A DNA stretch of 64,000 nucleotides from NCBI RefSeq assembly GCF_000487995.2, contig NZ_CP097562.1, positions 1,733,001-1,797,000 on the forward strand, read 5' to 3'. Of this stretch, positions 57,964 through 58,610 are shown in pieces; within the stretch, counting starts at the first letter, position 1, and every line of letters begins with the position of its first letter. The position numbers were made by a program, and so were the translations under genes. The stretch is from Mucispirillum schaedleri ASF457. Lineage in GTDB: Bacteria > Chrysiogenota > Deferribacteres > Deferribacterales > Mucispirillaceae. The notes beneath the pieces are model-generated. The model was not told the DNA's origin, did not search any database, and saw nothing but the letters and a program-made list of their open reading frames with translations.

Positions 57964-58266
57964 TTATTCACCTGTTACAATAGTGGTTTCTTTAACATAT
58001 AAACCTAAAACAGAGCTTCTTTTCTTATCAACTGTTTTAATGGCTTTAATACCACCTTGTCTGGCTGCTTCATCTATGGAACAGTTACCAGCAGCTACAA
58101 TTCCAAGAACATTAATACAAGATGCTTCTCCTTTTTTACTTCCTTGAGCAGCATTTGTAGCATTGACAGGTTCTGTAACACCTGTGTATAACCAGCCATT
58201 CATACCAGTTGCAGCACATCCTGATATAGAAGCTGCAAATAGAATTAATAAAACGATTTTTTTCAT
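57964..58266 (-). CDS. TRL-family lipoprotein
   Basis: A 100-residue lipoprotein. The signal peptide MKKIVLLILFAASISGCAATG has a clear lipobox (SISGC). The mature part, GWLYTGVTEPVNATNAAQGS, GEASCINVLGIVAAGNCSID and AARQGGIKAIKTVDKK, is the TRL domain (tRNA-associated locus protein family), small surface lipoproteins of unknown function. The ribosome site GGGAG lies nine bases before the ATG. Its promoter contains a ten-base G/C run in the spacer, so surface display of this lipoprotein is probably switched on and off. Confidence 0.88.
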   Translation of the reverse strand: MKKIVLLILFAASISGCAATGMNGWLYTGVTEPVNATNAAQGSKKGEASCINVLGIVAAGNCSIDEAARQGGIKAIKTVDKKRSSVLGLYVKETTIVTGE

Positions 58267-58299
58267 ACAACATTTCTCCCAATTATTTAGTGCAGCTGC

Positions 58300-58327
58300 A
58301 TTATAAACGGGGGGGGGGATTTGTCAA
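58300..58327 (-). promoter_or_regulatory. Consensus promoter with C10 tract in its spacer (phase-variable)
   Basis: On the minus strand: TTGACA (58327-58322), a 16-base spacer containing ten C (58318-58309), then TATAAT (58305-58300). Both boxes are perfect. In such AT-rich DNA a run of ten identical G/C bases is rare and prone to slippage; one added base gives the optimal 17-base spacing. Confidence 0.8.
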
Positions 58328-58359
58328 TAGTTTTTTAAAATATTAAGAATTATATTTTT

Positions 58360-58375
58360 TGGCATATTGTTTGCT
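58360..58375 (+). promoter_or_regulatory. Sigma-54 type promoter before a candidate small RNA
   Basis: TGGCATATTGTTTGCT: GG and GC ten bases apart, one base from consensus. No protein gene follows on this strand; a terminator does, 55 bp later. Confidence 0.55.
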
Positions 58376-58385
58376 AATGAAAAGA

Positions 58386-58457: not shown

Positions 58458-58490
58458 AATATAAACTAATTAACTGTGAGCCTGCTTCTA

Positions 58491-58610
58491 TGTTATACTG
58501 AGCCTAAAAGGCGAAGTATCTAAAAAAGCATATAACTTAAATGTATTATACATCACTGTAATATAAATAATTTAGATTTTTCGCCTTTAAAAAATCAGGC
58601 TCAAAATGAC
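58491..58610. repeat. Dispersed palindromic repeat, copy 5
   Basis: TGTTATACTGAGCCTAAAAG, GCGAAGTATCTAAA, then ATTTAGATTTTTCGCCTTTA, CAGGCTCAAAATGAC; same orientation as copies 3 and 4. Confidence 0.7.

Follow-up and report, generated by a model that had tools for sequence, protein, structure and literature searches.

Promoter switching through changes in spacer length is known best from a small number of genes in host-restricted pathogens. In N. meningitidis, the porA promoter contains a poly-G spacer, in which single-base changes step the distance between −35 and −10 around 17 nt (PMC7864442; spacer variation: van der Ende 1995, according to the citing passage of PMC5084427), and in T. pallidum the tp0126 promoter has a poly-G tract between −35 and −10 and is most active at 17 nt (PMC7864442). 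The promoter described here likewise carries a homopolymer in its spacer. It differs from that of porA, which drives an outer membrane protein, in having C instead of G on the RNA-like strand and in belonging to many loci per genome with shared architecture and mostly lipoprotein genes, and from that of tp0126 in that the latter has a G-run, occurs in an unrelated phylum and precedes a gene for an OmpW homologue. The surface-protein promoter of opc (N. meningitidis) is likewise furnished with poly-C, but this run overlaps the −35 region and thus affords no clean spacer mechanism (PMC7864442). Gut Bacteroides and Clostridioides likewise switch promoters stochastically, although by recombinase-mediated DNA inversion (PMC11868660), whereas in Mucispirillum only the length of a homopolymer would change. 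The novelty is one of scale and organisms, not of mechanism; a literature search retrieved no report of phase variation in Mucispirillum. The first-pass annotation invoked precedents from pathogens; Mucispirillum, associated with inflammation in the mouse, is a gut commensal/pathobiont genus and not a classical pathogen.

The window (the whole analysed stretch of 64,000 nucleotides from M. schaedleri ASF457) contains on its minus strand a sigma-70-type promoter (58327–58300; TTGACA-AAT-C10-GTT-TATAAT) agreeing with the consensus at 12 of 12 positions, exactly as the first-pass annotation had read it, i.e., with perfect hexamers, a 16-base gap and ten C. The −35 hexamer TTGACA (58322–58327) is retained upstream of the orthologous TRL genes in four further species of Mucispirillum, and the −10 hexamer TATAAT occupies 58300–58305. 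The 16-nt spacer (58306–58321) reads AAT CCCCCCCCCC GTT, its non-C part amounting to 6 nt, and the C10 tract (58309–58318), a putative slippage site, lies wholly between the two recognisable hexamers. The wording that the run is on the transcribed strand was loose, since it is the RNA-like (non-template) strand that carries C, 5' of the transcription start site. The promoter is located 33 nt 5' of the ATG (58266) of the TRL gene, with a ribosome-binding-like GGGAG (58276–58280) in between. Further upstream, a possible weaker promoter (TTAGCA-17-TATAAT, 58349–58377; consensus match only, 10 of 12 positions) could supply baseline TRL expression irrespective of the C-run. An Rfam search of the TRL region matched no RNA family. 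A short interspersed element resembling ATACTGAGCCTAAAAGGCGAAGTATCT is situated at about 58490–58525 and recurs at about 1517590 of the same genome as well as in a relative.

The downstream gene (57964–58266, minus strand) encodes a TRL-like lipoprotein of 100 amino acids, whose N-terminus is a lipoprotein signal (MKKIVLLILFAASISGC) with the lipobox ISGC. It is a member of the Pfam family TRL (PF13146; 96 bits versus a cutoff of 25, full 77-residue profile matched), confirming the identity proposed in the first reading; the lipoprotein nature stands as well, while the predicted surface location derives from the lipobox. A match to the adhesin Lsa14 (NF047877) stays below the curated NCBIfam cutoff (41.4 versus 120 bits), so that the protein is not a member of this family and, at most, this weak match may indicate a distant relationship to the Leptospira adhesin. 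Lsa14 binds laminin and plasminogen (PMC7662565), and an adhesin-like role of the TRL protein may be taken as a lead, not as a result.

Pattern searches were run on the genome of M. schaedleri ASF457, a single contig of 2.35 Mb with 30 % GC, and every C-run of at least 7 nt (54 in total) was retrieved. Perfect TTGACA-N14..19-TATAAT pairs are not enriched (23 versus 20 with the reversed-pattern control), but 7 of the 23 enclose at least 7 consecutive C. Relaxing the hexamers (TTGA..C7+..TANNNT) gave 10 sites versus none in the control. Runs of C or G of at least 9 nt number 43, compared to 0.2–0.4 expected from composition. Thus, it is the C-run that renders the TRL promoter significant, since perfect hexamers alone do not rise above chance.

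The TRL promoter is one of a promoter family, which the first-pass annotation had not recognised. Exact TTGACA-N-C7+-N-TATAAT matches occur at 35 sites in 10 of 15 genomes of the bacterial family, with one control match overall, and the relaxed search (TTGA/TANNNT) across the same 15 genomes yielded about 80 matches versus 2 in the control. The poly-G version of this geometry was not above control in the family genomes (6 versus 13), so the architecture is strand-specific. No C-run promoters were found in the other 41 genomes of the phylum, including the sister genus g2. From Mucispirillum and one sister genus (one genome per species), 73 distinct sites were parsed, all carrying C on the RNA-like strand. 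The tract is C9 in 54 of these, and spacers are mostly 15 nt long (44 sites), less often 16 (11), 14 (9) or 17 nt (3); C9 with a 15-nt spacer accordingly represents the usual state. The ten promoters of M. schaedleri ASF457 range from 7 to 11 C and from 14 to 17 nt, i.e., both on and off the 17-nt optimum. C9 is found in 50 of 63 sites from metagenome assemblies versus 4 of 10 sites from the isolate (p=0.016), which is only suggestive of greater variation among isolate promoters than among metagenome consensus sequences, given that the non-promoter runs of the isolate are mostly C9 (29 of 44). One sister-genus genome harbours 64 C/G runs of at least 9 nt, more than any Mucispirillum genome, only few of them in promoter geometry.

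Within the spacer the C-run shifts its position (e.g., TT+ATGA, AAT+GTT or AAAT+GT), while the non-C part stays at 6 nt in 50 of 65 well-matched sites. Of 29 distinct flank pairs, 17 sum to 6, versus 27 % upon re-pairing (p=0.0002), and the lengths of the 5' and 3' flanks correlate at −0.6. Hence, the spacing of −35 and −10 and not the position of the tract is conserved, as predicted by selection on the distance between the hexamers. Longer tracts are not offset by shorter flanks, the correlation of tract length with flank sum being r=+0.19.

Of 36 homologous pairs compared across species, 13 have tracts of unequal length, 7 of these with the same flank sum, and 2 differ in flank sum alone. 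The TRL promoter itself has C10 (16 nt) here and C9 (15 nt) in the orthologue of 83 % identity; those of 53–69 % identity retain TTGACA with ordinary spacers, the simplest account being that the C-run arose within Mucispirillum. Within the genome of M. schaedleri ASF457, a recently duplicated promoter has C10 at 1921193 and C11 at 1933225, although the two copies share about 115 bp of 5' sequence with 2 substitutions. Separately, repeat copies at 2303984 and 2307925 contain C7 versus C9.

A lipobox is present in 46 of 72 ORFs 3' of C-run promoters (about 64 %) versus none of 50 other large ORFs in the window, and a few of the other downstream ORFs possess a cleavable-type signal. Most of the roughly ten promoters of M. 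schaedleri ASF457 drive envelope genes, mainly for lipoproteins: besides TRL, a group of related lipoproteins (863232, 1026395, 1805198 and 1933225, with spacers of 16, 14, 14 and 17 nt, respectively), further lipoproteins (1327554 and 1982876) and a small membrane-type protein (1567066). The promoter at 1921193 precedes a truncated copy, and a C9 promoter at 1217453 precedes a gene for a GtrII glucosyltransferase (PF14264), where phase-variable glycan modification is possible. At 863232, the ATG behind the C10 promoter is out of frame with the signal-peptide-bearing lipoprotein ORF, which may indicate either a pseudogene or a further switch in short A/T runs.

Taken together, these data make it likely that the TRL gene is controlled by a sigma-70-type promoter with a slippable C-run spacer, belonging to a set of about ten such promoters in this genome. 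Replication slippage would add or remove C and thereby produce spacers of 15 (C9), 16 (C10), 17 (C11) or 18 nt (C12), an arithmetic correctly anticipated in the first reading. By analogy with porA and tp0126, transcription would be lowest at 14–15 nt, intermediate at 16 nt and highest at 17 nt; the TRL promoter (16 nt) would then be intermediate, one additional C yielding the optimum and the loss of one C a weak 15-nt promoter. A clonal population would consequently contain cells differing in their level of TRL lipoprotein, and independent slippage across about ten promoters could amount to combinatorial variation of the surface. With C9 as the commonest tract and a non-C part that mostly measures 6 nt, the default spacer is in most cases 15 nt, which by the same analogy would correspond to low expression, with rare higher expressers. 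It is thus probable that these bacteria raise and lower the levels of cell-surface proteins through gain and loss of C. The phase variability claimed in the first-pass annotation is hence supported in part, i.e., by recurrence, flank constraint and tract differences, with the switching itself deduced from comparison of sequences. That a defect in mismatch repair drives slippage was considered and rejected, MutS1 being intact; slippage would therefore take place in a repair-proficient cell and may be slow. The dominance of C9 in metagenome assemblies likewise suggests that tracts may be fairly stable.

That a common TTGACA/TATAAT pair in an AT-rich genome happens to flank a C-run could be argued from the hexamer pairs being no commoner than in the reversed control. 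The probability of such coincidence is vanishingly small, since the C-run sites, 10 versus 0 in the own genome and about 80 versus 2 in the family, already refute it, and the orthologous TRL gene maintains the architecture despite changed flanks. It is also quite improbable that the C-run promoter is real but minor and TRL is expressed mainly from TTAGCA-17-TATAAT: the latter does match 10 of 12 positions about 20 nt 5' of the C-run promoter, but a promoter scan returns about 20 promoter-like matches by chance per 3 kb around TRL, and its arrangement of −35 and −10 is not intact in the nearest orthologue.

Somewhat likelier, though still unlikely, is that the C-run acts as a fixed element of the spacer, structural or protein-binding; C9 plus 15 nt would then be the working state, owing to a regulator or to unusual DNA geometry, and changes in length would be incidental. 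The prevalence of C9 (54 of 73) and 15-nt spacing (44 of 73), the preference for C on one strand and the convergence of Clostridia on C8–9 and 15–16 nt would agree with such an element. However, non-promoter runs of M. schaedleri ASF457, too, are most often C9 (29 of 44), so this length appears to be a property of runs rather than of promoters; moreover, lengths vary from 7 to 11 among the ten promoters of one genome, and close duplicates differ in tract length. Spacer slippage is the best-supported mechanism, because it is in accord with genus-wide recurrence, constrained flank length and tract differences in orthologues and duplicates, phase variation being indicated by this comparative evidence.

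Outside the bacterial family, the same design occurs in several metagenome-assembled genomes (MAGs) of uncultured Clostridia (0.8–1.1 Mb; about 8–14 matches per genome, C8–9, 15–16 nt), apparently independently of Mucispirillum, and also, at a few sites each, in MAGs of WOR-3 and Treponema, most genomes giving few control matches; the design occurs in at least these lineages, and taxonomy is as given in the database records. A check for phage-borne promoters matched 19 viral contigs in 2.9 million, an unremarkable number. One may speculate, with even odds in our view, that Mucispirillum and, independently, gut Clostridia, a Treponema and WOR-3 operate a genome-wide switchboard of near-identical C-run promoters with a low 15-nt default, from which +1/+2 slippage activates genes for envelope lipoproteins and for a glycan-modifying enzyme in a random combination in each cell, and that this represents a common, overlooked type of surface variation among gut bacteria. 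The shared design precedes as many as about ten genes in a single genome of a mouse gut genus and recurs in unrelated lineages; if switching is confirmed, the number of C would report the expression state, providing a simple, predictable readout for metagenomes and gnotobiotic mice.

Beside the promoter type, paralogous lipoproteins of about 1000 codons (608, minus strand; 1014143, plus; 1070453, plus; 2270982, minus) contain a G9 run just past the motif ...GCSKD.....IIY. The G9 run puts the long downstream frame out in three of them, which are apparently off, and leaves it in frame in one, apparently reflecting translational phase variation.
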